Source of the DNA: Picochlorum sp. 'celeri'
Lineage: Eukaryota; Chlorophyta; Trebouxiophyceae
Length of the DNA: 64,000 nt
NCBI GenBank assembly: GCA_010909725.1
Contig: JAACMV010000008.1
Span: 496,001-560,000 of the forward strand
Direction: 5' to 3'
A program made the translations under genes and the position numbers. The notes under the pieces were generated by a model that was given only the letters and a program-made list of their open reading frames with translations, was not told where the DNA came from and searched no databases. This document shows positions 32,092 to 61,683 of the stretch, piece by piece. Position 1 is the first letter of the stretch. Each line of letters starts with the position of its first letter.

Positions 32092-32976
32092 TTATGAAAA
32101 GTCCATCTCTCCTGTCAGTTTTTTGAATAAATAGTCACGTCCATTAATACTGGCCACGCAGCCCTTCAGATTAACCTTCCACTTATTCTTGCTTCGATGA
32201 ACCCTCTCGAATTGACCAAAAACCATATTCTTTACTTTTGATTCGTCAACCTTGTGTAGACTATCTGCATCTGCCAAATCGTCCTGCACACCAAGAGCTT
32301 CAATCTCGCTGTCGTCTAGGTCAGAGCCAAGTGCCTCTTCGTCATCATCCTCGTCTTCCTCGGGACCGTCCCTCTGAGGAATCACATGTGTCATCTGCTG
32401 CTTCTCTGGACGCCCTTCACTTGGTCCTTCTTCCATCACACGCTTGTTTCCTGTCAAGGAAGGACCAGACTCTCCCTGGCTAGAAGCGCCATTCGCTGCG
32501 CTCGGAGCTGGTAGCGACATTTTGCCAACAGGCTCCCCCAAACCACCAGGAATTGATTCTCTGCGTTATAAGTGGGTAACCAGGTGAGATCCTCAAAAAA
32601 ATCAATAGCAACACGAGTTTTGTTCGAATGATACGCTAAGTGCAAAAGTCACACCTTTGATTGGCTGCCTGCTCCTTTTCTTCGACCTTAACTTCTGTAT
32701 TTTTGCTAGGATCCCCAAAAGCTCCAGATTTCGCAACGTTGAGTTCCCATAAAGCTCTCAGTTGAATCAGGACATCTCTGGAATGAAAAAACGCGCCGTG
32801 AAAGGCATTCCAAGGCGCTGCATAAGAAATGACGCATTAAATATGTATTTCACGTACTCAGATATACCCCGTTCCACGAACTCTGACTTCATCCTGGCGC
32901 AGGTGTTGTCAATGACCTTCTGGTACAGGTCCTTTGTTTTGGAGTATACCTTTCGTTTTGCTTTAGCTTCTGACAT
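32092..32976 (-). CDS. TFIIA large (alpha/beta) subunit
   Basis: Three exons: 32868-32976, 32655-32775 and 32092-32560, with phases that fit exactly, giving 232 residues. Exon 1 begins MSEAKAKRKVYSKTKDLYQKVIDNTCARMKSEFVER and exon 2 gives DVLIQLRALWEL, together the TFIIA alpha N-terminal helices. The C-terminus carries the acidic stretch (EEDEDDDEEALGSD) and the beta-barrel segment VFGQFERVHRSKNKWKVNLKGCVASINGRDYLFKK, diagnostic of TFIIA beta. The protein stabilises TBP on promoter DNA. Exons 1 and 2 and most of intron 2 are inside the duplicated 2.45-kb segment; only this copy has the C-terminal exon. Confidence 0.9.
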
Positions 32977-35028
32977 TGTAAAATATGACAGAAATTACAA
33001 ATAAATAAACATCTCAGTCTGCGAAAGGGTTTTGTGACTTTGGCGGCATGGGATTGGTGGAGGACACGGACGCAGTACTCTCCTTTCTGCTGACCGGCAT
33101 GGCAAAAGCCTTACCGTACATTTCGCCCGCAGCGCCCAAGACGAACGCATCTGGGATAGGATTTGTTGATGAGTGTTGACTGAGTACTTGTTCTTCAACA
33201 GGTTGTGGGTCTTTGTTCTCTACATCCGATACGTGCAATGAGGAGAAGTCCAATTCACTCAAGAGATCCAGGGGTGACGATTCCTTTGCTGCAGCTGCTT
33301 CCTCTTGAGGAGGAATATGATCATCCACAATTTTCTCCCTCTCAGGCTCGAATTCCCCTATATCTAACAGATCGATGGGCTTTTCCGGTTTCGCTTCGGC
33401 CTCGTCCCTCACAGGAGGCAATGCTTCAGCCGTCTCCTGTGCCTCGCTGACAGCAGATATCTGCCTTGACAACGGAGCAATAATCATCCCTGGATCCATC
33501 GATCCTATTGCTGTACCAATATCAGGAGGGCTAAAGTTTAGCTTCCACTCTTTGCCACGTCTGAGAGGCTGATTCGCCTGCAAAAATCAGATTCAACATG
33601 AAAAAAAAATACTCTCCCAGCCATAGACAGTCACCCACACCCACACCCACACACCTGCTTGTTCTGAATACCACTTTCTTTTTTCAACTGTTCCAAATGC
33701 TCGCTCATCGAATCCAGAAAATCTGTCGGAGGGACCTCAATTTTCGGGAATTCAATGACCCTTTTCACGGCATCCAACTGCTGCAAAGAGGCATAGTATT
33801 TTTGCAAATCATCACCCTCCTGCAGAGCTTTGCTGTACACTTCTCTGGCTTGCGCTCCACAGTAATATTCCATTTGAAAGAATTTGTCTGCCAGGTTAAT
33901 GACACCTTCACTGATTGCCTTGTAGATCTTGAAGGAGTCCCGCACAACCAAGGAAAGGGCAAACAGTGTATTGTCATTCTGACAGGCACTCCCAGTTGGC
34001 TTGCAGTCCACCAATCTCCTCTGCAGTCGTTGAATCCGTGGAAGATATTCCAAGAGTTTGTCGCTCGGCAAACTTCTAAAAGTTGACTCTTTCCCAGACT
34101 TTTCCACATCAGCGTACCACCCCACTCTGGTAGTATGCATCCAAACTTTCATCAATAAATTTGCAGTATGCTCGAACCCATTCAGAGAAGTCGTACTTGC
34201 CCTCGACCGCTTTTGTGTCTAAAAATCCATCCATATTCAATGGATGCACCCGCCGTCTCTTCTGTTTCCCTGATGATGCCGAGCCCTGCTGCTGCTGGGG
34301 CTGCCTCTCCCCTCCATTCACCATACATAATTCGTCCATAAACTGCGTGCCCTCCGTCTCTTTCATCAGGCGATGGATCACCAAGGAGGCTTTCAATGCA
34401 GTCTGCATGCATGACATTCACCGTCGCGTCGAAGAAAGACCTATTTCAATGAGAGAGAAGAAACAACATACCACCCAGTCCTTGGCCCCATGAAGGCGCT
34501 TCAACAAAGAGAAAACAACATAGCCACCCTGGGAGGGGACTGCCATTTTCAACGCTGCATGAACCATCTAGTAGTCAGGAAATAACATGCACCAACAAAT
34601 CATACTGACAGGGACGTACCAACAACATGCTTTTCTTTGGGTGGGTCTTCTGGCAAATGCCCACGAGTTGCCTTCTGTACAGCGACATCAATATCCTGCA
34701 AACACAGTCAGTACATTTCATCCAGTATGTCCATATCTGATGAGAGGATTGGCATCCCTGCCAGCATCGGAACAAAGAGATGACGCACTTTTGTAGTTAT
34801 ACCCACCCCCACTGAAGCCTTGCCCTTCTTCCCGAGAAGACCCATCTTGGCGATGCTCCTCTGGAATCAAACAGAATTAATACTAGTTACAGAGTACTTG
34901 CCATGGTGCCTGGGACCTTGTATGGAAACAGAACCGTGTCTTCAGAACAATCAAGTCTGTCCTCCTATTGGGGTCCACGTTTGATGGGAAACGCCCAGCC
35001 AATATCATTGTCCGATCGTAGAGTCCCA
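32574..35028. repeat. 2.45-kb duplicated segment, copy 1
   Basis: 2455 bp matching 49613-52066 at an offset of 17.04 kb. The only difference I found is one C (four here, three there) in the run near 34121. It contains TFIIA exons 1-2 and the whole ANTH gene. The left edge lies in TFIIA intron 2. The right edge lies 64 bp upstream of the SR-protein start codon. Confidence 0.9.
33014..34845 (-). CDS. ANTH-domain clathrin adaptor (AP180/CALM type), copy 1, frame-broken
   Basis: Five exons: 34807-34845, 34606-34695, 34472-34567, 33655-34402 and 33014-33577. The N-terminal ANTH domain is formed by DIDVAVQKATRGHLPEDPPKEKHV, FSLLKRLHGAKDWV and TALKASLVIHRLMKE. The C-terminal tail carries clathrin- and adaptor-binding DLL motifs (PIDLLDIG, PLDLLSELDF) and ends in NPFAD, an EH-domain ligand. 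Such proteins bind phosphoinositides and clathrin during endocytosis. One extra C in the run near 34121, inside exon 4, breaks the frame here; the other copy lacks it and is open. An intron of only 38 nt lies at 34568-34605. The stop is 37 bp from the TFIIA start. Confidence 0.85.
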
Positions 35029-35091
35029 TTCTTGTGTTTTCTGATACCTACGCCCGTAACAGTATTTTAATCTCATCAAAACATTGTAAAG

Positions 35092-38820: not shown

Positions 38821-40349
38821 TCATGAATACAATTTACAATGGTGTAAAATGATGTTAGTTCTCGCATGTGTTTCACTTTTGACAGATGAATCAGTAGCTG
38901 CGCGGATCACAACCATGCTGGGTCTTGCTGTGTACAGAGCCTCCACAGCATCTGCAACCTTGTGCCCTTCAACATCCGGGTTTGCTGCAATCACGAGGGT
39001 TTGGAGGCAAGAAAATACGGATACTCCATGAGGGACTCGCCAATCGAGAGAGGAGTGTGACCATACAATCCTCTGAAATATTATTGCCAGAGATGTCCAA
39101 ATCCCTGAGGGGGTGAGCACCCTCTGCATGCACCTCCAGGGCACGTATCAAGGATTCTATGCCACGTGTCCCTAAATTACATCCATGAAGCCTCAGAGAG
39201 AGTACACGATGACAGGTTGAGAACGTATGAGAAAAATTCATCGTGCCCCAAACCTATATTCTCACCAGGCATCCAACTCCAAACCTTTTCCATCTGGCAG
39301 ATGTGAGGCAGCTTCTAAACAATGTAGACATGCTCCGTGCCGTCAAGCCGCAACCCGAAATATTGATATATCGTATATGGGGTGGATCTTATTATGGGAC
39401 CTCAAGCATGCAGCCAAAGAACAAACCCCAGCATCTTGGGCATCTGTATGGCTAATATCAATACTCTGTATCCTGCTGGTAGGGCCTCAACGAGAGATGA
39501 AACCCCCTCTGGACCGAGAGGATTTGAGCTTAGTGATATTTCTCCAGACAAGTGCAGTGAGAAAGCCCTCAGCAAGGCAATACTGCGCTGCTGGCATCCA
39601 ACATGTTGTGATCTAGCTCCACTCTCTTCAACGCAGATGCATTCCTCATGGCGACAGCCAACGCGGTCGATGATCTTGGCACATCCTATACCACACGAAT
39701 GAGACACAAAACTCTCCAAAACTGACACACACGGAGAACATCCTCCAGCCCTCCTTGCAAATCATTATGGGAAAGCATCAGGTGCCTGACAGATGACTCT
39801 TCTCCACAGCCCTACATACAGCAGCAGCAGAGCTGCGAGTCAACCCTTTCCTCTCTAATCTATTGTCGTGATACTCGTATTTTCCTCCGAAACACCCGCA
39901 TTAATTCAAACCATGGCCTGCAACACATCATGCAAGGAGTCCCTTGTGTGAGACAGCAACCTCCAGGAAGCAGTCCTCCAGTCCTCCACCAAAATACCAC
40001 GCACCTCGTCTCCAAATGTCGAATTCCTATTGAAATGAACTGATGCTCTGGTTTGACTTCAACCCCGCCCCCGAGGATACCAGCTATCCGCGGACTATAG
40101 CATGACTGCTCAGGTTGAGTTCAACAAGCGTCTCTGACCGCGACAGGCATCAGCCAGCCGTCCCGCATCCTCCTCATTGAACCGACGGTGCCTCATCAGG
40201 TACAAGGATGTCAAAGTAGCATCGTTCTGAGATATTCGTCTGACAATATCGTCAATCCCCTGAGACTGGGCCCCCCACATGCTTCCCACCAAACACACGG
40301 ATGCTATGCCTCGATGAATAAATAAATGCAAATGTAGTACATCAACCAT
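38821..40349 (-). pseudogene. Leucine-rich-repeat (RNI-like) gene, frame broken many times
   Basis: On the minus strand, LRR-like stretches appear in changing frames. Examples are LTSLYLMRHRRFNEEDAGRLADAC, STFGDEVRGILVEDW, LKRVELDHNMLDASSAV, ISLSSNPLGPEGVSSLVEAL, IDISHTDAQDAGVCSLAACL, LRLHGCNLGTRGIESLIRAL and LRDLDISGNNISEDCM. The repeats are of the ribonuclease-inhibitor type and in consistent order, but six or more shifts separate them. Either the gene is decayed or this stretch is poorly sequenced, as with the neighbouring PsbP. No function can be assigned beyond protein binding. Confidence 0.5.
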
Positions 40350-40527
40350 GCATGCAGATCAAAAAAGGTACCATTCCAGATCGACCAGGTGGTCATCAAC
40401 GTGGTGAATTCCCTTAGTTGATGAAGGCAATCATCCATCCTGGGAGGATGAGATCTTCATCAGAAGATACAAGCCACTGGCATGACCCATCCCATTCGCA
40501 ATTCCCATATAAAACTTTACTAGCACC

Positions 40528-43389
40528 ATGCCCCAGCCTCAGCCACCTATTGGTGGCAAACAAATGCTTCTGGACAAGAATACGAAACTGAGTGCTCAAG
40601 TGGCAACGCAGCGAAAGGAAATCAATGATTTGAAGGACAGGCTGCATAATTTAGAAAACGAAGAAATAAAATGGAAGGATACAGCTGCTTGTCTGACGTC
40701 TGTATGGGACGAGTTGAACTCATCGCTTGGCTTTTTGCAATTCAAGTACGTGGCCGTCTGTTATGGTGTCTTCTTGCTGATTCTTCCTTCATTGTTTACA
40801 TATGTTTATTCAGAGTCAATGAGAGTGCCGAGGTTGCACCCGCTGGGTTGGATGCGTCTTCTGCGAAAGCTCTTCTGGAGGAGACGAATCCTTTCCTGGC
40901 CCATCTCCTTTCTAGGTACTTGCCAGACGATCCTGTGGCGGCCAAGTCGGCCAAGAACCTGGCAGATGATTTATCTGAGACGGAGAAGGCGCTTCGAAAT
41001 AAAATGAAGGACACAATGGCCGTGGCTTCGTCCATTTTGAATGCTATAGAGGAAATGAAAGGAGCAGGGAATGGTGGAGGCAGCCTTCCTGGCTTTGAAG
41101 AGTCCAAGCTGGCAGCTCTTGTGAATATATTAAAGTCTGAGAATGGAAAATTGGTGAAGGATTCCCTGTCGGACTCGATAGCGATCAGGCAGCTGGAGGC
41201 AGATATTGCTGATAAGGAAGCAGAGATACAAGTGCTGCATCGCAAGCTCGTGATGGAGAAGAGTGTCGACAGGGGTGGAGGGGATGTGGGCGTGTCTCGG
41301 TCGGAAGAGGCCCCAGAGGTGAGCAAAGGGGTGTCTCGGAATGGGTCTGAGCAGAAATTAGTGTTGGACCAAAAGGATGAGGCTGCACCTCAGGTGGAGG
41401 CTCTCAAGAAAGAGGTGGAGAAGAGGGATGGAGACATTGCTCGTTTGGAGAGGTATGTATTTCTTGCAAAATGTCTAAAAAGTAGTGCCGAAGTCTGGCG
41501 CGCTAATCCACTGCGCTAAGGCGACAGAACGAGACGAGCTCGTTCTCGCATAGTACCTCTATGAAAGAGGTCAGACTATATGACCCTCCCTGTCACGGGA
41601 GTCTAGAAACCGGAATCTAGGACGATTTTACTGTCCTAAATGCGGAATTTCGCCATCGCCTGCGGGGATCGAACCCGCGACCTCCAGATGACATCTGGGC
41701 GCCTTGGCGGCATAGTGCCGATGTAGAATTTTTGCTTGGTTGCATCCATGGGTGGTTGTGCGGCGCGTCGTCTCATCATGTCGTTCGTCTTGTTCTTGCA
41801 GTGAATTATACACGCTGAGGCGTGAGATGGACGCAGTGTCCGAGAATACAAAGATAGAGGTCGCGCAGCGCCAAGAAAAACTGGACCTGCTGACTGAAGA
41901 TGTGGAAAGGGTGAAGCAAAAATTGAAAGATTCCTATCGAGAGCAAGATCGCCTGAATTCCAAGTTGCGGGATGCAGTGCGGGATCTTGAGAAAGGTCAA
42001 AGAGCTCTCAGACGTGAATCCAGGCTGGAACATGCAATATCGGAGCTGGAGGCACAGGTGAAGCGCCTTAGAACAGAGCGGAATGAGGCTGAACGTCAGT
42101 TGCAGGAATGCAAGCACAATGATTCCTCTCAGACTCGAGATGAGTTGCTTCAACAAATGCAGGGAATGGAAACAGAGATGAAGATGCTGAAGGATGCGGT
42201 TTCAAAGCACCAAAAGGCTGCCGAGGTTGTGGAGGAAGCAGACAAGCTCAAGTCTGCCCATGAGGTGGAGATTGCAGAGTATAGATCCCGGGTTGCTGAC
42301 ATGAATAAGCAGGTGAGCGTTTCGATGGTTAAACTCAACGATTGGATTCAAAAGTATGTGGATCAAACAAAGGTCAATGAAGAGCTCCGCTGCTTCCTGG
42401 AATTGTCCCAGGAGTATCTGGGAAAACATGAGACAATGGAGGCTAGCATCAGGGATGCCATACACGAGTACCTGAAAACGCAGATGTCGTCTTTGGAAAA
42501 TCGGGTCACAGCAGCGATGAAAGAGTCGCGTTCAGAGAGAGAAAGAGAGATGACTCAAGAGATCAATGAGCTTCGGAATGAGCTCGAGGGCATCAAGGGA
42601 AAGCAGGCAGGCTTGCTTGCAGAGGTTGAAAAGGTCCGTTCTGAGAAGGCAAATTTGATGATCGAGGCAGATACGTTTTGGAAGGAAATGGATAGTGTCA
42701 GTGAGGCTTATGAAGCTTCGCGAGATCAAAATACAAAACTGCTGTCTGCCATGTCCAAGAGAGATGAGGACAATGCCAGACTTCTGAGTGAAGCGGCTGC
42801 TGCAGCTAGAGACAAAACAATCATGGAGGAGGACAGGGATATGGCGCAAAGAATGATGAAGTCTATGGAACAAAAAGCACAAGATGCGGAAGAAAGAGCG
42901 AAAGAAATAGAAGAAAGGTTTGATCGATTATCTAAAGAGCGAGATGTCTACAAGACGGATGTGCAGCACTCGAAGGAGCAAATAGAGTCTTTACAGAGCG
43001 AGGCCAAAGCTTTGAGAATTTCCATGGATGCATTAAGATCCGAATTATCGAACGCAAAGAAAGATATCGAGATGATAGAAGCTGACAAAGCAAAGCATTT
43101 GGCAGCATTGAAGTCTGAGAAAACAAGAGCTGATAGGGCAGAGAGGATTCTGTCAGGTAGAAAAGACCTGAAACTACAAGCGGGCGAAGAAGCGGAGAGG
43201 GAGGTACTGAGAAAGATGGTTAATTGCAGTGTCTGCTCGACACGTTTGAAAGATCGTATCATCACCAAATGCAATCATTTGTTCTGTTCTGCATGCATTG
43301 ATGTCAACTTGTCCAGCAGGCACAGAAAGTGCCCTGGCTGTGGAGAAAAATTTGGCGTGGGCGATGTGAAACCATTTTATTTTACATAA
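40528..43389 (+). CDS. BRE1: BRE1/HUB-type E3 ubiquitin ligase for histone H2B
   Basis: Three exons: 40528-40745, 40814-41452 and 41802-43389, phases matching, 814 residues. Almost the whole protein is coiled coil, starting with LLDKNTKLSAQVATQRKEINDLKDRL. The C-terminal RING finger has CSVCSTRLKDRIITKCNHLFCSACID...RHRKCPGCGEKFG and ends DVKPFYF, the exact BRE1/HUB pattern. With RAD6 it monoubiquitinates H2B in transcribed chromatin. Intron 2 (41453-41801, 349 nt) is by far the longest confirmed in the window and contains an antisense permuted tRNA-Arg gene. Confidence 0.95.
41477..41481 (-). terminator. RNA polymerase III terminator of the permuted tRNA-Arg
   Basis: Five T residues on the minus strand, six nucleotides past the end of the 5' half at 41488. 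The position implies that the primary transcript ends just after the 5' half. Confidence 0.7.
41488..41689 (-). tRNA. Circularly permuted tRNA-Arg(UCG), antisense in BRE1 intron 2
   Basis: Minus-strand order is: 3' half at 41689-41654 (A38, stem TCTGG, AGGTC, T-arm GCGGG-TTCGATC-CCCGC, acceptor AGGCGAT, G73); a 128-nt spacer at 41653-41526; 5' half at 41525-41488 (acceptor GTCGCCT, TA, D-arm GCGC-AGTGGATTA-GCGC, G, stem CCAGA, loop CTTCGG). The acceptor strands pair 7 of 7 with one G-U, and the anticodon stem pairs 5 of 5. The joined tRNA is 74 nt with anticodon TCG. Box A (TAGCGCAGTGG) and box B (GGTTCGATCC) are intact but in reversed order. The spacer has no run of four T. Alternative: the leader plus 3' half can fold into a poor conventional tRNA with anticodon GTC, but that has a mispaired acceptor and no GG in its D-loop. 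Confidence 0.78.
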
Positions 43390-46400: not shown

Positions 46401-47516
46401 CCATCCCCTGGGGAGCCTTGCGGCGAGAACTGGGGTGGATCTAGAAACATTGGCTCGTGGCCTTGATTCGTCGATCCACCATTAGGCTTCCTCAATGCTG
46501 AAGATGCGCTAGGAACATTAATGCCACTCTTGGATGGAGACGAGCGCTTCTGGGATGGTGCACTTTTGTGATGTGGGGCCGTGCTTGGCGTAGGCACCTC
46601 GGTGCTCTCTACCTTCTGGCTAGACACAACCCTGCACTCTTCCTCGGTTCGCCTGTCCTGGACAGATTTTGCCACAAAAGGATGATTCATTATTTCTGGC
46701 CAGTCAAGCCTTCTGTTAGGATCCTTTTCCAGCAAACCCTTTAGGAAAGACTTGAACGGCCCAGACATGCTGGACGGATATACTGGTGGATCGTGAACAA
46801 TCTGCTTGATCAACGCATAAATTGACGACGTATAGAATGGAGGCTTCCCAACGAAGAGCTCATACAGGATGACACCCAATGACCACAAATCGACAGCATG
46901 GGTGTATGGCTTTTCCTGGACCAACTCTGGGGCCATGTACAGGGGAGTCCCTTTAATGGAGGTCAGCACGACTGTATTCTGTGACATGGCTCTTGCAAAA
47001 CCAAAGTCACACAGCTTCACCGTTCCATCCGCCGCGATAAGGATATTCTGTGGCTTCATGTCTCTATGGATGATTCTATTTGAATGTAGATAGTGCAATG
47101 CATCCACCAACTGCCCAGCCAATGTCTGGACCACCTCCTCAGACAGACTGGTATCCGTCTCCAAAATCTCAAAGAGCTCACCTGCAATCAAATCATGGTC
47201 ATGATATTTTTCCATGACGCCAAGCAAGCATGGCATACGTACCTTGAGCAAATTCAGTCACCACACAGAAATCACTGCCAGTCTCAAACGCGTCAATCAT
47301 CTCAATGATATTCCGATGCCGTAATTTTCGCAGTATATCAATCTCCTGTCGAAGCCCTCGTATATCCTTGTCCTTTTTCCCCCTCTTGGGAATGAGTTTA
47401 ATCGCCACCGTCCGTAAGTCCCCCACCTTCCGGGCCTTCCACACCTTGCCAAAAGAGCCCTCACCAACAAGCTCCAAGAGCTTGTACTCCCCGACCAGAG
47501 CCTTTTCGCCAGACAT
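43407..47516 (-). CDS. Fused/TIO (STK36-type) kinase with long helical-repeat tail
   Basis: Three exons: 47243-47516, 44259-47181 and 43407-44214, with introns of 61 and 44 nt; 1334 residues. The kinase domain opens with [20 protein letters not shown], has [22 protein letters not shown] and APELV, and ends with [11 protein letters not shown] Ser/Pro linker follows. The remainder is an armadillo/HEAT-like array, clearest at the C-terminus ([50 protein letters not shown]). The layout is that of plant TWO-IN-ONE, which acts in phragmoplast cytokinesis, and animal STK36, which acts in motile cilia. It converges on BRE1 with 17 bp between stops. Confidence 0.92.
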
Positions 47517-47938
47517 CTATCAGGTATTATGTAATTCTATGTTGACATAAATCGCCCCTATCTATCGGTAAAAAAGCCACAACGTCACCACCCGAGTTGC
47601 AGTTAGAGTAACAGCGTCTTATTGTTTCTCTCTTCCAAGCCTATGGACCTTCTCCAGCATATAAAATCATTTATTCATTCATTCAATCATTATATATAGA
47701 TGATTGTGACCCTATGGGTCGTTCTTCCGGCTGAATACAAGCATAAAAAGACACAGCCATGTGCTGAGTCGAACATCTCCCATCCAGTACATCTGTTGAT
47801 AGGCACAAAGACCGCATCTCAAAATAGTCTCGGCAAGACGCATGCCCTTTTTCCGATTGATGACACAACGCACTGCCCATAATGGCATGATAAATAATTG
47901 GATAGCGGCAAGGGCATCTCTCCTCGGAAGATATCTCG
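47517..47938. other. Intergenic, AT-rich
   Basis: Divergent promoter region between the Fused kinase and a small plus-strand gene. Contains an ATTCATT repeat and a TATATATA stretch near 47670-47700. No gene recognised. Confidence 0.35.
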
Positions 47939-48533
47939 ATGGGGACCAGCCATGCAGATGCAACGTCGTCATCCTCAGAGGATGACGAAGAATACGCCAA
48001 ATTTGCATCCGTTGCTGTGAATGCAGAAGATGTAAGACGGCAGAGCGTGTCAATTCGGGGCAAGGGGGTTTCGGATGGTGGTGCGGGTTCCAGAAGGGGT
48101 TGCTACAACCGTCTCAGAGGCCCTGTGGAAAAAGTTGGATGCGGGAATAGAATTCGGAACGATCAACCAGGACTCTAATCCTTCATGTTCGACACATCGT
48201 GATACACAGGGCTCTAGTAGAGTCGAGAGCAGCCCAGGGCTGCGTTTGTTTCGAAGGGGACCCACCGTCAAAGGTGACTGTACTCCTCGGAAGGAAACCA
48301 CGAGACACACTGCGCGCACGGAGAGCATACTTCCAAGAAGGAGGCAAATAGACCATGAAGGAATATCAATCAGTGATATAGAGCCTCTTATTGTGCTCGG
48401 GCAGGATATCATGGTGGGCAGGCAGAGACAAAACCCACCTCCCAGTGTGGACATCCCCAAGGCCAAGAAACGGCGGATGCTCCGTAATTTTGAACTCTAT
48501 AACACTCCTATTGACGTAGAGGAATATTCATAA
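47939..48533 (+). CDS. Small hypothetical nuclear protein, two offset frames
   Basis: The ATG at 47939 begins an acidic Ser-rich stretch (SSSSEDDEEYAKFASVAVNAEDVRR). The second frame, open from 48075 to 48533, continues with EGVATTVSEALWKKLDAGIEFG, a charged Arg/Thr region and PKAKKRRMLRNFELYNTPIDVEEY. I found no splice pair that joins them in phase, so either one base is missing near 48065-48080 or the true start is at 48075. The order of acidic start, short helix and basic end loosely recalls the CUSTOS (C12orf43) family, but this is weak. The KKRR stretch may be a nuclear localisation signal. Confidence 0.4.
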
Positions 48534-49598: not shown

Positions 49599-49693
49599 GC
49601 TCGGCGGTAAAGGGGTAACCAGGTGAGATCCTCAAAAAAATCAATAGCAACACGAGTTTTGTTCGAATGATACGCTAAGTGCAAAAGTCACAC

Positions 49694-50015
49694 CTTTGAT
49701 TGGCTGCCTGCTCCTTTTCTTCGACCTTAACTTCTGTATTTTTGCTAGGATCCCCAAAAGCTCCAGATTTCGCAACGTTGAGTTCCCATAAAGCTCTCAG
49801 TTGAATCAGGACATCTCTGGAATGAAAAAACGCGCCGTGAAAGGCATTCCAAGGCGCTGCATAAGAAATGACGCATTAAATATGTATTTCACGTACTCAG
49901 ATATACCCCGTTCCACGAACTCTGACTTCATCCTGGCGCAGGTGTTGTCAATGACCTTCTGGTACAGGTCCTTTGTTTTGGAGTATACCTTTCGTTTTGC
50001 TTTAGCTTCTGACAT
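49694..50015 (-). pseudogene. TFIIA large-subunit exons 1-2, truncated copy
   Basis: The exons at 49907-50015 and 49694-49814 are identical to the first two exons of the gene at 32092-32976. The third exon, with the conserved beta-barrel half, is missing because sequence identity ends inside intron 2, beside the assembly gap. It is either a truncated duplicate or an assembly artefact. Confidence 0.75.
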
Positions 50016-50052
50016 TGTAAAATATGACAGAAATTACAAATAAATAAACATC

Positions 50053-51883
50053 TCAGTCTGCGAAAGGGTTTTGTGACTTTGGCGGCATGGGATTGGTGGA
50101 GGACACGGACGCAGTACTCTCCTTTCTGCTGACCGGCATGGCAAAAGCCTTACCGTACATTTCGCCCGCAGCGCCCAAGACGAACGCATCTGGGATAGGA
50201 TTTGTTGATGAGTGTTGACTGAGTACTTGTTCTTCAACAGGTTGTGGGTCTTTGTTCTCTACATCCGATACGTGCAATGAGGAGAAGTCCAATTCACTCA
50301 AGAGATCCAGGGGTGACGATTCCTTTGCTGCAGCTGCTTCCTCTTGAGGAGGAATATGATCATCCACAATTTTCTCCCTCTCAGGCTCGAATTCCCCTAT
50401 ATCTAACAGATCGATGGGCTTTTCCGGTTTCGCTTCGGCCTCGTCCCTCACAGGAGGCAATGCTTCAGCCGTCTCCTGTGCCTCGCTGACAGCAGATATC
50501 TGCCTTGACAACGGAGCAATAATCATCCCTGGATCCATCGATCCTATTGCTGTACCAATATCAGGAGGGCTAAAGTTTAGCTTCCACTCTTTGCCACGTC
50601 TGAGAGGCTGATTCGCCTGCAAAAATCAGATTCAACATGAAAAAAAAATACTCTCCCAGCCATAGACAGTCACCCACACCCACACCCACACACCTGCTTG
50701 TTCTGAATACCACTTTCTTTTTTCAACTGTTCCAAATGCTCGCTCATCGAATCCAGAAAATCTGTCGGAGGGACCTCAATTTTCGGGAATTCAATGACCC
50801 TTTTCACGGCATCCAACTGCTGCAAAGAGGCATAGTATTTTTGCAAATCATCACCCTCCTGCAGAGCTTTGCTGTACACTTCTCTGGCTTGCGCTCCACA
50901 GTAATATTCCATTTGAAAGAATTTGTCTGCCAGGTTAATGACACCTTCACTGATTGCCTTGTAGATCTTGAAGGAGTCCCGCACAACCAAGGAAAGGGCA
51001 AACAGTGTATTGTCATTCTGACAGGCACTCCCAGTTGGCTTGCAGTCCACCAATCTCCTCTGCAGTCGTTGAATCCGTGGAAGATATTCCAAGAGTTTGT
51101 CGCTCGGCAAACTTCTAAAAGTTGACTCTTTCCCAGACTTTTCCACATCAGCGTACCACCCACTCTGGTAGTATGCATCCAAACTTTCATCAATAAATTT
51201 GCAGTATGCTCGAACCCATTCAGAGAAGTCGTACTTGCCCTCGACCGCTTTTGTGTCTAAAAATCCATCCATATTCAATGGATGCACCCGCCGTCTCTTC
51301 TGTTTCCCTGATGATGCCGAGCCCTGCTGCTGCTGGGGCTGCCTCTCCCCTCCATTCACCATACATAATTCGTCCATAAACTGCGTGCCCTCCGTCTCTT
51401 TCATCAGGCGATGGATCACCAAGGAGGCTTTCAATGCAGTCTGCATGCATGACATTCACCGTCGCGTCGAAGAAAGACCTATTTCAATGAGAGAGAAGAA
51501 ACAACATACCACCCAGTCCTTGGCCCCATGAAGGCGCTTCAACAAAGAGAAAACAACATAGCCACCCTGGGAGGGGACTGCCATTTTCAACGCTGCATGA
51601 ACCATCTAGTAGTCAGGAAATAACATGCACCAACAAATCATACTGACAGGGACGTACCAACAACATGCTTTTCTTTGGGTGGGTCTTCTGGCAAATGCCC
51701 ACGAGTTGCCTTCTGTACAGCGACATCAATATCCTGCAAACACAGTCAGTACATTTCATCCAGTATGTCCATATCTGATGAGAGGATTGGCATCCCTGCC
51801 AGCATCGGAACAAAGAGATGACGCACTTTTGTAGTTATACCCACCCCCACTGAAGCCTTGCCCTTCTTCCCGAGAAGACCCAT
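50053..51883 (-). CDS. ANTH-domain clathrin adaptor (AP180/CALM type), intact copy
   Basis: Five exons: 51845-51883, 51644-51733, 51510-51605, 50694-51440 and 50053-50616, giving 511 residues with every phase matching. The sequence is as in the copy at 33014-34845, but the three-C run keeps exon 4 open through YYQSGWYADVEKSGKESTF. Domain order: N-terminal ANTH (about residues 1-300) containing the coiled PSDKLLEYLPRIQRLQRRL region; acidic Pro/Glu linker; two DLL-type clathrin/adaptor motifs; terminal NPF. Exon 4 carries a poly-Gln stretch and KRRR. It acts at the plasma membrane or trans-Golgi in clathrin-coat assembly. If the duplication is artefactual, this is the correct sequence of the single gene. 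Confidence 0.88.
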
Positions 51884-52095
51884 CTTGGCGATGCTCCTCT
51901 GGAATCAAACAGAATTAATACTAGTTACAGAGTACTTGCCATGGTGCCTGGGACCTTGTATGGAAACAGAACCGTGTCTTCAGAACAATCAAGTCTGTCC
52001 TCCTATTGGGGTCCACGTTTGATGGGAAACGCCCAGCCAATATCATTGTCCGATCGTAGAGTCCCACTCTTTGTGTTGCAATGGGACATACGATA

Positions 52096-56794: not shown

Positions 56795-58371
56795 TTACAC
56801 CGCATCCTCATTGTGACTGGATGTGTATTGATTGAGGTCAACCCATCGGCCCCGTTTTGTGACAGTTCCCGTCAGAATGTACCCTCCTCCATGGTTCATG
56901 TTCATCAAGGGGTGTGTTCGTAATGGAAGCACTTGTATGTCTCTGGTCCACGCTTCATGGATTGTTGTTCCTACAGCATAGTTTTTGACTCGAAGGAGAT
57001 TCATGCAGTCTACTAATGGTTGGAGAACCTGTGAGACAACAACAAACGTTGCAGACGGAGCTAGGAGTGGCAGCACAGCAAATAGGGACGATTTCAACGA
57101 ATAATGTGCTGCTGTAATAATACAACTCGTAAATCGAGGCTTTGCTGGAGGGGCAGCCACTGTAGTGTCCTCATCCTCATCCCTCTTCTTATCTGTAAAG
57201 TACTTTGCACGATGCGCCATGCCATCAACCTCGAGGAGAAGATCAAACAGTGGTTTTGTGTGAATAGTCTTCTGTATTGTATCCGAGAAATTGAACTGTG
57301 TTGTAATGGATATCGAGGGCGAGTTTCTACCATGATGGGCAGCACACACCTCACCAAACCCACCCAATTTCTCTGCAACAGCCCCTGTAACAAGCCCACT
57401 GGATGCCTCCAGCACAAGAACATTTTGGTATGGACCTACATTCGCCATTGTTAGAGCAAGAGCAAGTGTATCTGGCCTCAAATACCCAATGGTATTGCTG
57501 TGCCGAGAATAATATGCTTCAGCAAGCACAGCTGCTGATGGCTTCCGAGCACACCCAATCAGCACATACTTGTCCACTTTTTTCTTCCTGAAAAACCATC
57601 AACCATTCACAAAGTGAGTCATCATTCTTTTTTTCTTCTTTTTTCAATACTACTCCCAATCAATCAATCAACCGATTGGGATTGACCAACAAAACAACGC
57701 ACTTGTACTTTTTCTGAGCAAACCCACTCATCTTGTCAAAATTCTTTGAATTCGTCACCAACGCATCCACAATCGTAGCCCCCTCGGCACCAGAGGCCTT
57801 CATCCCTTCAATCTCTTCCCTTGACATGTGCTGATTCCCCGCCTCTTGGTCATGGATGTGATTTGAACCATCCCGATCAACATCCTCCAACTGCTCATCC
57901 CATTCCTCACTAGGCTCACTGCATTGGACAATACGCGATCATCATCACAGGATGAAACATATACATATATAGTCGATGATACAGTAGGATGTCATACGCA
58001 CTGTGCAACCGGCCGAAGCGATGCCCCGTCCTCTCCCAGTCCAAACAAGGTCCCAAACCTATGCCCAACAAGATCAGTCGTCTGACAATTTCCTCGACCA
58101 AACCTCACCGTACTGCATCAGTAATCAATACTATGTTTGAATATTTCAATCACCAAAGATGATGCATTCCAGAATCAGAATATTCGAAGACATCCTCGCA
58201 TGGCATGGCAATGTTTCTCTTCAAATGCATTGTATTTCAAAAGACATGGAAAACCCACCTTCCGCTCTTCACCTTTACAAACTGTACCTTTAATTTATTA
58301 TTAACATCAAATACGACCGTATCACCCTCCTGAATAATATCTGGGTCTTTGCCACAACCACTGTTCGCCAT
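56795..58371 (-). CDS. TRM6: tRNA m1A58 methyltransferase non-catalytic subunit TRM6
   Basis: Four exons: 58259-58371, 58002-58058, 57703-57918 and 56795-57587, with consistent phases, 392 residues. The N-terminal barrel is IIQEGDTVVFDV...LKVQFVKVKSGR then FGTLFGLGEDG. The segment ATIVDALVTNSKNFDKMSGFAQKKYK, then KKKVDKYVLIGCARKP, and GYLRPDTLALALTMANVGPYQNVLVLEASSGLVTGAVAEKLGG are TRM6 hallmarks. The methyltransferase fold is degenerate, as expected for the non-catalytic partner of TRM61. The complex methylates A58 in the T-loop of nuclear-encoded tRNAs, including initiator tRNA-Met. Two tRNA genes of unusual form lie in the same window, though no link is implied. Confidence 0.92.
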
Positions 58372-58836
58372 GCTTCGCTTTATTTGTATGTATCTCAATG
58401 CCTCTCCATCAACACCGTCATAATTACAATTCAAATAATAGTACTGTTGATGTACTATGAATTCAATCCGGTGCTCTCTACTTATAGTACATGCATGTGT
58501 GTGAAACACTCCATGCAAATGGTTGCCCTTTTCCTTGAAAAGAAAGAATTGTTCTTTCAAGAAATGTAGAATTGCCGGTATGTCCACCCCGTCGATGCCG
58601 TGTTCAATGCATGCAGTCAATCACGGATGATTGGATTCTCAGGGTATCAGATCGCCAGATGAGATGGGAATCTTTTGCACCCCATGGACATGGGCATGGA
58701 ATATTGATGGGGGTTCTTCTTCTGCTGCTGCTAGTGTAGGATTTGGGACATCCTGTCTCTTCTAGGGTCAATTCACATGCACAGGCTGCTCTGTTGATGG
58801 ATAATTTTGAAACTGAATAAAACCCAAGAGCAATCA
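58372..58836. other. Divergent promoter region TRM6/MATE
   Basis: No gene recognised in 465 bp. Frames on both strands are short and without domains. Confidence 0.35.
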
Positions 58837-60477
58837 ATGATGGATGATGTGCTGGATTACGATAATTCAGCGTATTCGTCTTACAAAGCAATTGCTGGGG
58901 TCGCTGTTCCTTCCATTGTTTTGAACGGTAGGTCATGCACCGTTTGGATTTGTTCATACCCTGAATGCATGAAAAATCTAAATATATGTGTGGATTTGAT
59001 TCCTGTGTGTGCAGCTGCGGCTCCTTTGACTGGGGTGGTTCAAACAGCCTTCTTGGGGTATTACGTAGGGAACCATGCCTTGGGAGCATACGGTGCCTGT
59101 ACTATCATTGCTGGGTTTGCCACTCGTATATTCAACTTTCTTGTGGATGGGGTGAGTGCGAAAACTGGTAAGAGTGTTGGGAGACGGGCATGGAGGGAGC
59201 TTGGGGCAAGGGTGAAGCATTCCTTGCTCTTTGCAGTGGCCATGGGAGTGCTGGGGTTGAGTATGCTGATGCTTTTGAAAAACTTTTTGATGGAGGGTGT
59301 TTTAAATTTATCTGGGGATATTTTGGATGAGGCATATGGCTTTTGGACTCTTCGAGCGTTGCTGGTGCCATTTTTATTGCTGAACATGAGCTTGTCAGGC
59401 ATCTTGCAAGGGTTTCGATGTGTCAAGACGGTGGCCATGTTGAACACAGTGCAAGCTCTTATAGAAATGGGTGGAAGTGTTTTTGTCATCATGTTTGAGA
59501 TACAATTTCAGGGGAGTCGACTGATGTCGGTCGGGGTTGTGTCTCTGGTGTCATACCTACTGTCTGTTGTCGCTGGGTGTGTGTTGATATTTGTCATGAA
59601 ACCTCCCGAGGCTGGCGCGTCTTTTTCGTTGTGGATAGAAATGTTTTATCCGGAATTGTCGTCGTCGTCGTCCTATTCCAGCCTGCGTGATTCTCTGGTT
59701 GGTACAGACAATGAGGATGATGATGATGATCTAGAAGAAGAGGAAGACGAGACATTGTTGGACTTTGTCAAGGATGGGCTAAACATGTTGATTCGATCCC
59801 TGATTATGCAGTCGACATTTTTTATAGCATTGGTATGTTCGACGCGATTAGGGAATAAATACTTGGCTGCCCATTCCATTATTAGTCAGCTCTGGTTGCT
59901 TTTGAGTTACATTGTGGATGGGTTTGCTGCGGCTGCGATTGTGTTGGGGTCGCGACTTGGGGGTCAAGCGTACAACCCTGCTCGAGCAGCTGACGCAAAG
60001 ATGCATCTACAGCGGTTAATTATACGTGTGCTATCAGCAGGGCTGATTACTGGTGTGGCAGCAGCCATTGTGTTCCAGGTCAAGGCGGATGCCATCATGG
60101 GACTCTTTACAAGGAATGAAAAGACTCTTGCAATTCTAAAAAACGGCACCTGGCAATTACTGAGTCTTGTCCAGCCATTGAATAGTCTTGTATTTGTATA
60201 CGATGGTCTCATGTATGCGTCTCAGTCCTTTACATTTATCAGAAATTATTTTTTAGTCGGATTCTTTGTTGTCTTCATGCCAATCATTGGGCTGCAAGTT
60301 TCAGTATGGCACACCTTGTGGGGAGTATGGATGGCAAAAGCATTGTTCAATGTATGGAGATGTCTCGGAGCAGCATATCTGATACACCATGTGTTCTTGG
60401 CAGAATTCGACGCAGAATGCCTGCGTCGATCACGCAGCTCTCGTAGCATTATTAATATTGATGAATCGGCAGCGTAA
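58837..60477 (+). CDS. MATE-family multidrug/organic-compound transporter
   Basis: ATG at 58837; intron 58928-59014 (87 nt, reads through in frame without a stop, donor GTAGGT, acceptor GTGCAG). Spliced product 517 residues. About twelve transmembrane helices in two halves. The first half shows AAPLTGVVQTAFLGYYVGNHALGAYGACTIIAGFATRIFNFL; the second shows FFIALVCSTRLGNKYLAAHSIISQLWLLLSYIVDGFAAAAIVLGSRLGG, the MATE signature region with conserved polar residues. An acidic Ser/Asp/Glu loop (DNEDDDDDLEEEEDE) separates the halves and is coded by a GAT/GAA microsatellite. The type resembles plant DTX proteins of plastid or vacuolar membranes. The substrate is unknown. Confidence 0.88.
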   Translation: MMDDVLDYDNSAYSSYKAIAGVAVPSIVLNGRSCTVWICSYPECMKNLNICVDLIPVCAAAAPLTGVVQTAFLGYYVGNHALGAYGACTIIAGFATRIFNFLVDGVSAKTGKSVGRRAWRELGARVKHSLLFAVAMGVLGLSMLMLLKNFLMEGVLNLSGDILDEAYGFWTLRALLVPFLLLNMSLSGILQGFRCVKTVAMLNTVQALIEMGGSVFVIMFEIQFQGSRLMSVGVVSLVSYLLSVVAGCVLIFVMKPPEAGASFSLWIEMFYPELSSSSSYSSLRDSLVGTDNEDDDDDLEEEEDETLLDFVKDGLNMLIRSLIMQSTFFIALVCSTRLGNKYLAAHSIISQLWLLLSYIVDGFAAAAIVLGSRLGGQAYNPARAADAKMHLQRLIIRVLSAGLITGVAAAIVFQVKADAIMGLFTRNEKTLAILKNGTWQLLSLVQPLNSLVFVYDGLMYASQSFTFIRNYFLVGFFVVFMPIIGLQVSVWHTLWGVWMAKALFNVWRCLGAAYLIHHVFLAEFDAECLRRSRSSRSIINIDESAA

Positions 60478-60561
60478 ATCTCCAATCGATCGAGGATATT
60501 CACACATTCATGTCGTCAACGAATCATGATACAGTAATTTCATTTTGTATTATACATGTCA

Positions 60562-61683
60562 TCAGTCCATTGAGACGCCAAATTTCATAAACATTTCCCG
60601 CCTATCCGATGCATGATATCCTGCAAGGAATGCTCTGCCAAGTCTGCCGACATCATGGCCCTCTTCTGCATTCTCACGCTGCTGTGGTTCCTCATGCTCA
60701 TCTATCATATCCCTAAAACAGCATCCCGTTACTCTACATACTAGCATTTCATCCCCCACGCACCGATCCCGCTCCTCGCACATGTCCCCACACGCATGCA
60801 TGGTCCCACAATGACGACAGATCCAGTGATGCCCAGTCAACCGCACGTATTCACACGAACAACAACCACCCGTCTCATCCAAGCTACGAAATTCTTCTAT
60901 TCCATGATACTTTTTGAATTTGAGCACTTGATCTTTCAAACTTCCTGGCACACACATTGTATTGGTCGCCATGCATAAGGTTGCATCTGCACTCTCATCC
61001 GTCAATGACTGCTCCCTGCATGCAAGGGTCATTTGAGAGTACAGTTGCGCATCTTCTTGAACCACGCCCATCACATTCTTTATTTCCTCTGCATCCCGTT
61101 CCATATACAATTGCTTCCAGTCCTCTTTCTTGATCACTTCTTCACCCTCTTGGAGGCCATATGGCCATCGGGTGTAGTACAAGGCCTTCCACAGTGATGC
61201 AGATGATGCCAGCGATCGACACAAACGACACGTCTGCGCAAGATGACAGAGCGCGTTTGGTGATAATCGCGCTACTATTCTTTCCAAACAATCAACAGGT
61301 AAATTGGTCAAGCACTGCTCAGAACACCCTGGCGCTCCATGATACCCAGCCTCCTCTTCTGCAGTCGATGATGTGTGCTTCTGTGCCTTTGTCTTCTCAC
61401 CTGTCGCTTGCTTTTTCTGAACCACAAGTGGACGTTTCAAAGACCGTCGCCGCCGTCCCTTCTGCTCTTCTATGCCTGTATTGCTGATTGTTGCATCCCC
61501 TCCACCTCGCCTGCTAGAATGCTCCTCATCCATCAATGCCTCAAGCAGGGCCTCTTCCATTCCATCATCAACATCCCTACAACCCTTACTACTTGTATTC
61601 TTCTCTTCTGGACCTCCTCGCCCATCACCTGAGCCACACGCGGCCCCCCCTCCCCTCACAGTATGAGGTGAGACCACATCCAT
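60562..61683 (-). CDS. F-box protein with C-terminal Cys-rich domain (SKIP31-like)
   Basis: 373 residues, single exon, ATG at 61681-61683. A low-complexity Gly/Glu/Arg/Lys N-terminus precedes an F-box (LTNLPVDCLERIVARLSPNALCHLAQTCRLCRSLASSASLWKALY) at about residues 125-170. The C-terminal region is rich in Cys and His (CCSCEYVRLTGHHWICRHCGTMHACGDMCEERDRCV...LVCRVTGCCF). Its layout resembles the C-terminus of Arabidopsis SKIP31, suggesting zinc binding. As part of an SCF complex it would select substrates for ubiquitination. The substrate is not known. Confidence 0.75.
   Translation of the reverse strand: MDVVSPHTVRGGGAACGSGDGRGGPEEKNTSSKGCRDVDDGMEEALLEALMDEEHSSRRGGGDATISNTGIEEQKGRRRRSLKRPLVVQKKQATGEKTKAQKHTSSTAEEEAGYHGAPGCSEQCLTNLPVDCLERIVARLSPNALCHLAQTCRLCRSLASSASLWKALYYTRWPYGLQEGEEVIKKEDWKQLYMERDAEEIKNVMGVVQEDAQLYSQMTLACREQSLTDESADATLCMATNTMCVPGSLKDQVLKFKKYHGIEEFRSLDETGGCCSCEYVRLTGHHWICRHCGTMHACGDMCEERDRCVGDEMLVCRVTGCCFRDMIDEHEEPQQRENAEEGHDVGRLGRAFLAGYHASDRREMFMKFGVSMD

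Follow-up and report, generated by a model that had tools for sequence, protein, structure and literature searches.

A probably functional permuted tRNA-Arg(UCG) gene antisense in a predicted BRE1 intron of Picochlorum sp. 'celeri'

In a stretch of 64,000 nucleotides from the trebouxiophyte green alga Picochlorum sp. 'celeri' (contig JAACMV010000008.1, positions 496,001 to 560,000; this whole stretch is called the window, and its own numbering is used below) we find a gene for an arginine transfer RNA (tRNA) with the anticodon UCG, the two halves of which stand in reversed order. The gene lies on the minus strand, opposite to the protein gene BRE1 and, as judged from the sequence, entirely within the second intron of BRE1. 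We consider it very probable that this is a functional, circularly permuted tRNA gene of type II, broken between positions 37 and 38 and nested antisense in BRE1 intron 2.

The permuted gene and its host intron

A first-pass annotation of this DNA had proposed a permuted gene with reversed halves on the strand opposite to BRE1, and its coordinates, strand and order of the halves proved exact to the base. In the direction of transcription the minus strand carries a leader, the 3′ half, a spacer of 128 nucleotides, the 5′ half, six further bases and a run of five T (T5):

41726..41731, minus strand: AAATTC, candidate upstream promoter element, 42 nucleotides upstream of the 3′ half; the word is common to linear and permuted tRNA genes of the genome
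41690..41692, minus strand: leader nucleotides −3 to −1 (GTC); G(−3) is able to pair with C32 (the anticodon–intron pair) in the predicted substrate of the splicing endonuclease
41654..41689, minus strand: 3′ half of tRNA-Arg(UCG), positions 38-73, transcribed first; B box GGTTCGATCCC at 41675-41665
41526..41653, minus strand: spacer (intervening sequence) of 128 nucleotides that separates G73 from G1; GCGAAATTCCGC adjoins G73
41488..41525, minus strand: 5′ half of tRNA-Arg(UCG), positions 1-37; A box TAGCGCAGTGG, anticodon UCG, break at 37/38
41477..41481, minus strand: T5, candidate terminator for RNA polymerase III (pol III), 6 nucleotides past the 5′ half

When the halves are joined, 74 nucleotides result which ARAGORN names tRNA-Arg (tcg), in agreement with the proposed identity. 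The joined product has an acceptor stem of 7 bp, a D arm GCGC/GCGC, an anticodon stem CCAGA/TCTGG and a T arm GCGGG-TTCGATC-CCCGC, so that the A box, the B box and the acceptor and anticodon stems are intact as the first-pass annotation had claimed; its T5 was likewise found in place. The anticodon loop CTTCGGA contains the anticodon TCG and is broken (CTTCGG/A) between 37 and 38, the usual intron position. The features expected of a permuted gene thus occur together: the order of the halves on one strand, a complete joined tRNA, the break at 37/38 and a terminal T run outside the spacer. Allowing up to three mismatches, the 5′ half occurs once in the window and was matched in none of 100 shuffles, and ARAGORN reports no linear tRNA in the 64 kb. 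As far as the sequence can tell, the locus is a genuine permuted gene of type II and no accident of sequence.

The halves of a split tRNA would be transcribed separately and joined in trans, the spacer holding a terminator or a second promoter. The spacer is indeed unusually long and starts with GCGAAATTCC, which contains a promoter-like word. This word is about 120 nucleotides ahead of the 5′ half, whereas upstream elements of tRNA genes sit mostly 20-60 nucleotides ahead of the gene; a reading of the spacer sequence shows no run of four T (T4), and ten other measured permuted genes share the order of the halves with spacers of 11-58 nucleotides. We therefore judge a split tRNA to be highly improbable.

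The spacer of the permuted gene (41526-41653) is a series of strong hairpins with the promoter-like GAAATTCC where it starts. Its predicted fold is more stable than expected (z-score −3.6, with none of 200 shuffles equally stable); the entire intron 2 folded on the BRE1 strand is less striking (z-score −2.4, 2 of 100 shuffles equally stable). A search of the whole window against Rfam at gathering scores gave no match, and intron 2 alone gave only two matches below the cut-off, one to a plastid element and one to a fragment of tmRNA that covers the T arm. Since nothing in the window or the intron exceeded the cut-off, the spacer appears to hold no known RNA family.

The host gene is predicted to consist of three exons:

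40528..40745, plus strand: BRE1 exon 1
40746..40813, plus strand: BRE1 intron 1, 68 nucleotides
40814..41452, plus strand: BRE1 exon 2; beyond the donor its frame stays open up to a stop at 41519, and its last residues (AEVWRANPLR) are antisense to the 5′ half
41453..41801, plus strand: BRE1 intron 2, 349 nucleotides, host of the tRNA; GT-AG, same donor motif in relatives
41802..43389, plus strand: BRE1 exon 3, encoding the coiled coil and the RING at the C terminus

Intron 2 begins with GTATGT and ends with TTCTTGCAG and is a good candidate for a spliceosomal intron of BRE1. The three joined exons give a stop-free frame of 814 residues, the two long frames being in phase across intron 2; when this intron is retained the frame stops 22 codons past exon 2. 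At the level of prediction the permuted tRNA is enclosed by the donor and the acceptor of a single BRE1 transcript, as the first-pass annotation had stated. Exon 3 finds its best solved-structure matches in BRE1B (E 1.1e-16) and BRE1A (E 1.4e-14) and has a RING domain in Pfam. For the N-terminal 285 residues the solved-structure search gave nothing significant, and all 11 Pfam matches were below the cut-off; a relative of this part, the database protein P0008, is named E3 ubiquitin-protein ligase BRE1 by its source.

These data also bear on the possibility that there is no intron at all and that two adjacent protein genes flank the permuted tRNA. The splice is a prediction, the exon-2 and exon-3 frames of relatives stand in the database as proteins of their own, the exon-3 relatives P0002-P0004 begin within exon 3 and do not cover the joint across intron 2, and the N-terminal part lacks a significant match. 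Against two genes speak the GT-AG signals with the in-frame joint, the name of P0008 together with the matches of the C-terminal part to BRE1 chains, and the exon end at the same donor motif in 14 of 19 relatives (described below). We give this alternative only a very slight chance.

Traces of the tRNA in BRE1 relatives

Past the donor, the exon-2 frame of the window ends with ...LERYVFLAKCLKSSAEVWRANPLR and a stop codon, a translation of the 5′ half in antisense. The database proteins of relatives contain the same kind of information, as gene callers have likewise extended their exon-2 frames across the donor and into the intron. Two protein searches gave 19 other proteins (P0006-P0024), all of which were read; in two of the three protein searches on parts of BRE1, scoring was limited to the candidates with the largest numbers of shared words. 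The 14 relatives kept were required to have the donor motif ERYV (once ERCV), so that its presence in all 14 is by construction. P0009, P0011, P0022, P0023 and P0024 were excluded as they have no donor motif, the frame having been left earlier or the proteins being pieces of exon 1. In P0019 and P0020 exon 1 is continuous with exon 2, without an intron 1.

A comparison of the intron in relatives had been suggested by the first-pass annotation. Behind the same BRE1 donor, seven of the 14 relatives end in the antisense translation of the 5′ half, with EVWRANPLR terminal in P0007, P0010, P0013, P0014, P0019 and P0020 and CRSLAR, from another frame, in P0015. The other seven (P0006, P0008, P0012, P0016, P0017, P0018 and P0021) end before the 5′ half would show and are uninformative. 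The positive relatives belong to four protein clusters (that of the window, with P0007, and three more) with a pairwise identity of at most 50% between clusters; a fifth cluster (P0008) is uninformative. Over BRE1 exon 2, six of the seven positives are 45-48% identical to the window and P0007 is 88% identical.

In the positive relatives the distance from the donor to the 5′ half is only about 29-95 nucleotides, and in this interval not a single 3-mer of the antisense 3′ half was found in any frame. A linear gene on that strand would show its 3′ half first, whereas here it is absent ahead of the 5′ half, and the layout therefore fits a permuted gene. The residue preceding EVW is Ala in P0007, P0010, P0013 and P0014, which requires G37 and then C, as in the trailer of the window's gene, and Val in P0019 and P0020, which requires A37 and then C; with the G37-A38 of the window, a linear gene lacking an intron would put Ser at this place. 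The nested, permuted-type layout looks, from these sequences, old and conserved. Because traces of the same tRNA occupy the same intron in several diverged relatives, the tRNA looks like a working gene.

Permuted tRNA genes, their signals and copies in the genome

We searched the diploid assembly (27,412,692 bases in 30 contigs, the window being positions 496001-560000 of contig C8) for further permuted genes. The consulted part of the assembly report describes a phased diploid assembly of 27.43 Mb in two sets of 15 scaffolds, made from PacBio reads without short-read polish, with an overall G+C content of 46% (PMC7225527); slices of the window have 45.5-49.0%. The B box GGTTCRANYCC has 187 sites in the diploid assembly (99 + 88). 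Among the first 100 sites listed, 94 are in the loci that were scanned and 6 on C16 were omitted as alleles of C10; 7 more sites were fetched later, and a few others entered as alleles. The scan seeks the elements of a tRNA in their permuted succession (T arm, acceptor, D arm, anticodon stem) with the break fixed in the anticodon loop, so that other types are invisible to it. In 247 kb of fetched loci it gave 16 matches, alleles and duplicates counted, as compared to one in total over 100 dinucleotide-preserving shuffles. Apart from the gene in the window the permuted loci are, in order:

L021/L119: Leu(AAG)
L028: Ser(AGA)
L034: Gly(GCC)
L036: Ala(TGC)
L045: Arg(TCT)
L072: Cys(GCA)
L074: Ala(CGC)
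L077: Leu(CAG)
L097: Ser(GCT)
L100: Leu(TAA)
L128: Ala(AGC)

The scan of loci around B-box sites yielded ten genes, namely Arg(TCG) and those of this list other than Ala(AGC) and Leu(AAG), and ARAGORN recognises all ten as tRNAs once their halves are joined. Ala(AGC), with a spacer of 28 nucleotides and a scan score of 17.0, was added afterwards; Leu(AAG) was read by eye, its base 32 being a G, which the scan excludes. The genome thus contains at least 12 distinct permuted tRNAs, Arg(TCG) included, a lower bound as most remaining B-box sites were assumed to be alleles by position and left unread and tRNAs with other B boxes were outside the survey. A search with the Rfam tRNA family RF00005 scored 63 of 866 candidates. 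Permutation is a habit of this genome, and our results suggest that the tRNA set of Picochlorum relies heavily on permuted genes missed by standard finders.

The statistics that follow use the first ten permuted genes, without Ala(AGC) and Leu(AAG), and 18 linear genes, which are the distinct ARAGORN calls minus repeats and minus three judged false (L022, L084 and L034, the permuted Gly gene); the names used for L020, L054, L069 and L070 are manual corrections. The spacers of the other nine permuted genes measure 11-58 nucleotides, and that of Arg(UCG), at 128, is the longest measured. Six of these nine are free of any overlap with open frames of at least 360 nucleotides; for Arg(TCT), Leu(CAG) and Ser(GCT) there is an overlap with stop-free stretches. 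Arg(UCG) is the sole permuted gene that we can place in an intron, the others having been checked coarsely by open frames, which does not exclude introns around them.

In nine of the ten permuted genes, including that of the window, base 32 and base −3 of the leader can pair (C-G or T-A), with Ser(GCT) as the exception; the next best leader position, −4, reaches seven of ten. The pair 32:−3 corresponds to the anticodon–intron pair read by the tRNA-splicing endonuclease. Anticodon–intron pairs are mentioned in the consulted sections of a review (PMC3978253). In the Arg(UCG) substrate the anticodon stem and the C32-G(−3) pair are present, and by manual reading the bulge-helix-bulge helix is weak further out. 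The domain of the tRNA-splicing endonuclease, PF01974, has nine matches in the assembly. One of these, a frame of 112 residues, is repeated with equal score on C9, C10, C12, C16, C21, C25 and C26, and at the identical position 1564-1779 in C9, C12 and C26, which suggests a multiplied segment.

The word AAATTC is found within 60 nucleotides upstream of 10 of the 18 linear and 6 of the 10 permuted genes, that of the window among them, versus 2.4% of 60-mers drawn at random from the loci fetched. We see in this word a candidate upstream promoter element for pol III, common to both kinds of gene; it would serve permuted genes well, as their inner boxes stand in inverted order. The longer word (G)GAAATTC was seen upstream of both linear and permuted genes (e.g., L003, L007, L027, L034, L045 and L100). 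On the other side of the genes, a T4 or longer run begins 3-28 nucleotides past the 5′ half in all ten permuted genes (at 6 in Arg(UCG)), as against a T4 in 24% of random 60-mers. In addition, TTAAGGAA occurs within 60 nucleotides downstream of 5 of the 18 linear (e.g., L001, L025, L037 and L076) and 1 of the 10 permuted genes (control 0.25%).

The intron with the tRNA is present four times in the assembly: in the window, in its C17 allele, which shows no difference over 381 bases, and, inverted and 99% identical, in the duplicates of C8 and C17. In each haplotype an inverted duplication has accordingly given permuted Arg(UCG) a second locus, and the BRE1 flanks are duplicated along with it over at least 3.4 kb. 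On C8, positions 57708-61088 and 47227-47446 match window positions 39940-43320 and 47781-48000, inverted and near-identical, at a distance of about 480 kb on one chromosome, and contain another copy of BRE1, likewise with the tRNA nested in it.

The first-pass annotation had held that a linear tRNA-Arg(UCG), together with a lack of tRNA reads from this locus, would undo its proposal; of such a linear gene none was found by the following searches. All eight matches of the joined 74-mer in the assembly are halves of the four permuted copies. Gapped patterns of TTCG-R and a B box, limited to one B-box form and spaced for no intron or for an intron of up to about 60 nucleotides, gave 12 and 4 sites, none of which could be read as a linear Arg(UCG) gene (reversed control patterns, 4 and 13 sites). 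In viral contigs neither an exact 21-base piece of the 5′ half nor a relative of BRE1 was found, and a 27-base piece had no exact match in prokaryote genome contigs.

Several observations weigh against a working permuted gene. Half of the donor-reaching relatives (7 of 14) end too early, and P0017 has a tail of 16 residues without the tRNA peptide; in the relatives only the 5′ half is visible, as the 3′ halves would lie beyond the stop. The end helix of the predicted endonuclease substrate is weak past the C32-G(−3) pair in our reading, and the freely folded precursor favours a structure other than the cloverleaf by 3.8 kcal/mol (−80.4 vs −76.6). The four copies are too alike to reveal selection, so that the comparison of duplicates and alleles is uninformative. 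The C17 duplicate (L012), itself noisy, has many single-base indels, some of which affect the spacer and the 3′ half, together with a BRE1 frame that ends at residue 41; we tentatively take these indels for assembly noise. Finally, by hand reading L069 is a linear Arg(ACG) and L054 a linear Arg(CCG) gene, both containing an intron, where the ARAGORN names differ. Since such genes appear to exist, the UCG gene is possibly non-essential.

The last point would suit a dead relic, a once-working permuted tRNA that is now intron filler while Arg(ACG) and Arg(CCG) decode, as other arginine genes reading CGN seem to be present. In the supposed relic every stem is intact with the terminator and the upstream element in place, and the antisense 5′ half is retained in the four diverged clusters, which is hardly expected of an unselected intron. 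We consider a relic quite improbable and prefer a functional gene.

Maturation, known systems and significance

For the functional permuted gene we propose the following course of events. Pol III would initiate upstream of the 3′ half, probably aided by AAATTC, transcribe the 3′ half, the spacer and the 5′ half and halt at T5 while still inside the intron. The anticodon stem would draw the ends of the precursor together, and, by analogy with the pathway in other algae, the tRNA-splicing endonuclease may cleave at 37 and 38, ligation giving a circle from which RNase P and tRNase Z would excise the spacer at the acceptor side before CCA is added. The BRE1 pre-mRNA, made from the opposite strand, would drop the same DNA segment as an ordinary spliceosomal intron. 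Circularisation followed by release through RNase P and tRNase Z is the maturation pathway given for permuted tRNAs in the consulted sections of the review (PMC3978253). Reads across G73, spacer and G1, which the first-pass annotation had named as evidence of a circle, are colinear with the genome and hence no mark of circularisation; the mark is the 37-38 junction with the spacer retained.

The nesting might be kept by a coupling in which pol III passing through the folded spacer, or the circle, acts on splicing or transcription of the BRE1 pre-mRNA by collision or antisense pairing; we regard this as unlikely. If it were true, an arginine tRNA would be tied to the ubiquitination of histone H2B, in which BRE1 has its role, and loss of the intron would mean loss of the tRNA, giving a tRNA-locked intron common to several lineages.

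The 2014 review, in the sections consulted, tabulates 34 permuted genes with spacers of 1-74 nucleotides, mostly broken at 37/38 in green algae, and calls such genes few and their purpose unclear (PMC3978253). The type II genes of Ostreococcus, Micromonas and the Bigelowiella nucleomorph resemble the present gene in having the 3′ half ahead of the 5′ half on one strand with the break at 37/38. The table does not contain Arg(TCG), and its spacers are shorter than the present 128 nucleotides, which the first-pass annotation had rightly called long. For the permuted genes of Cyanidioschyzon merolae, processed via a circle, an upstream promoter element has been proposed in place of the inner boxes, similar to our candidate; in contrast, this is a red alga with several break positions, a TATA-like rather than an AAATTC element and few protein introns (same sections of PMC3978253). 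Later reports, as far as consulted, describe permuted tRNAs in nucleomorphs (PMC4494063) and in Auxenochlorella (PMC12633428, PMC12636532). In Auxenochlorella UTEX 250-A, also a trebouxiophyte, a standard search left the tRNA set incomplete and permuted genes were then found (PMC12636532), a likeness drawn from the description and not gene by gene.

Introns of protein genes are known hosts of tRNA genes: in Drosophila 46% of the cytosolic tRNA genes, linear ones, lie in them, according to a passage that is silent on permutation and strand (PMC9249942). A permuted gene inside an intron of a protein gene goes unmentioned in the consulted sections of the review, in whose text 'antisense' and 'within an intron' occur nowhere (PMC3978253). 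As the first-pass annotation had supposed, no such case was apparent among the papers listed by searches of an open-access library, most of them judged by their entries, nor was a report of permuted tRNAs in Picochlorum; subscription papers were mostly outside this search. Both ingredients, a permuted tRNA and a tRNA in an intron, are thus known, and their combination, its conservation and the long spacer are new. A permuted tRNA is here caught in a predicted spliceosomal intron of a chromatin gene, and in diverged relatives the antisense of its 5′ half likewise follows the BRE1 donor. This makes the locus datable, and one may ask how old the permutation is, whether a resident tRNA can preserve its intron and how pol II and pol III transcription in opposite directions can be reconciled. 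Antisense peptides that end mis-called exon proteins offer a cheap route to such genes.

Elsewhere in the window there is a direct repeat of about 2.48 kb with 100% identity (32559-35038 and 49600-52077), within which frames of 162 residues correspond to each other (33598-34086 and 50637-51125); the first of these had no match in Pfam. The frame 50670-51455 on the minus strand contains an ANTH domain.

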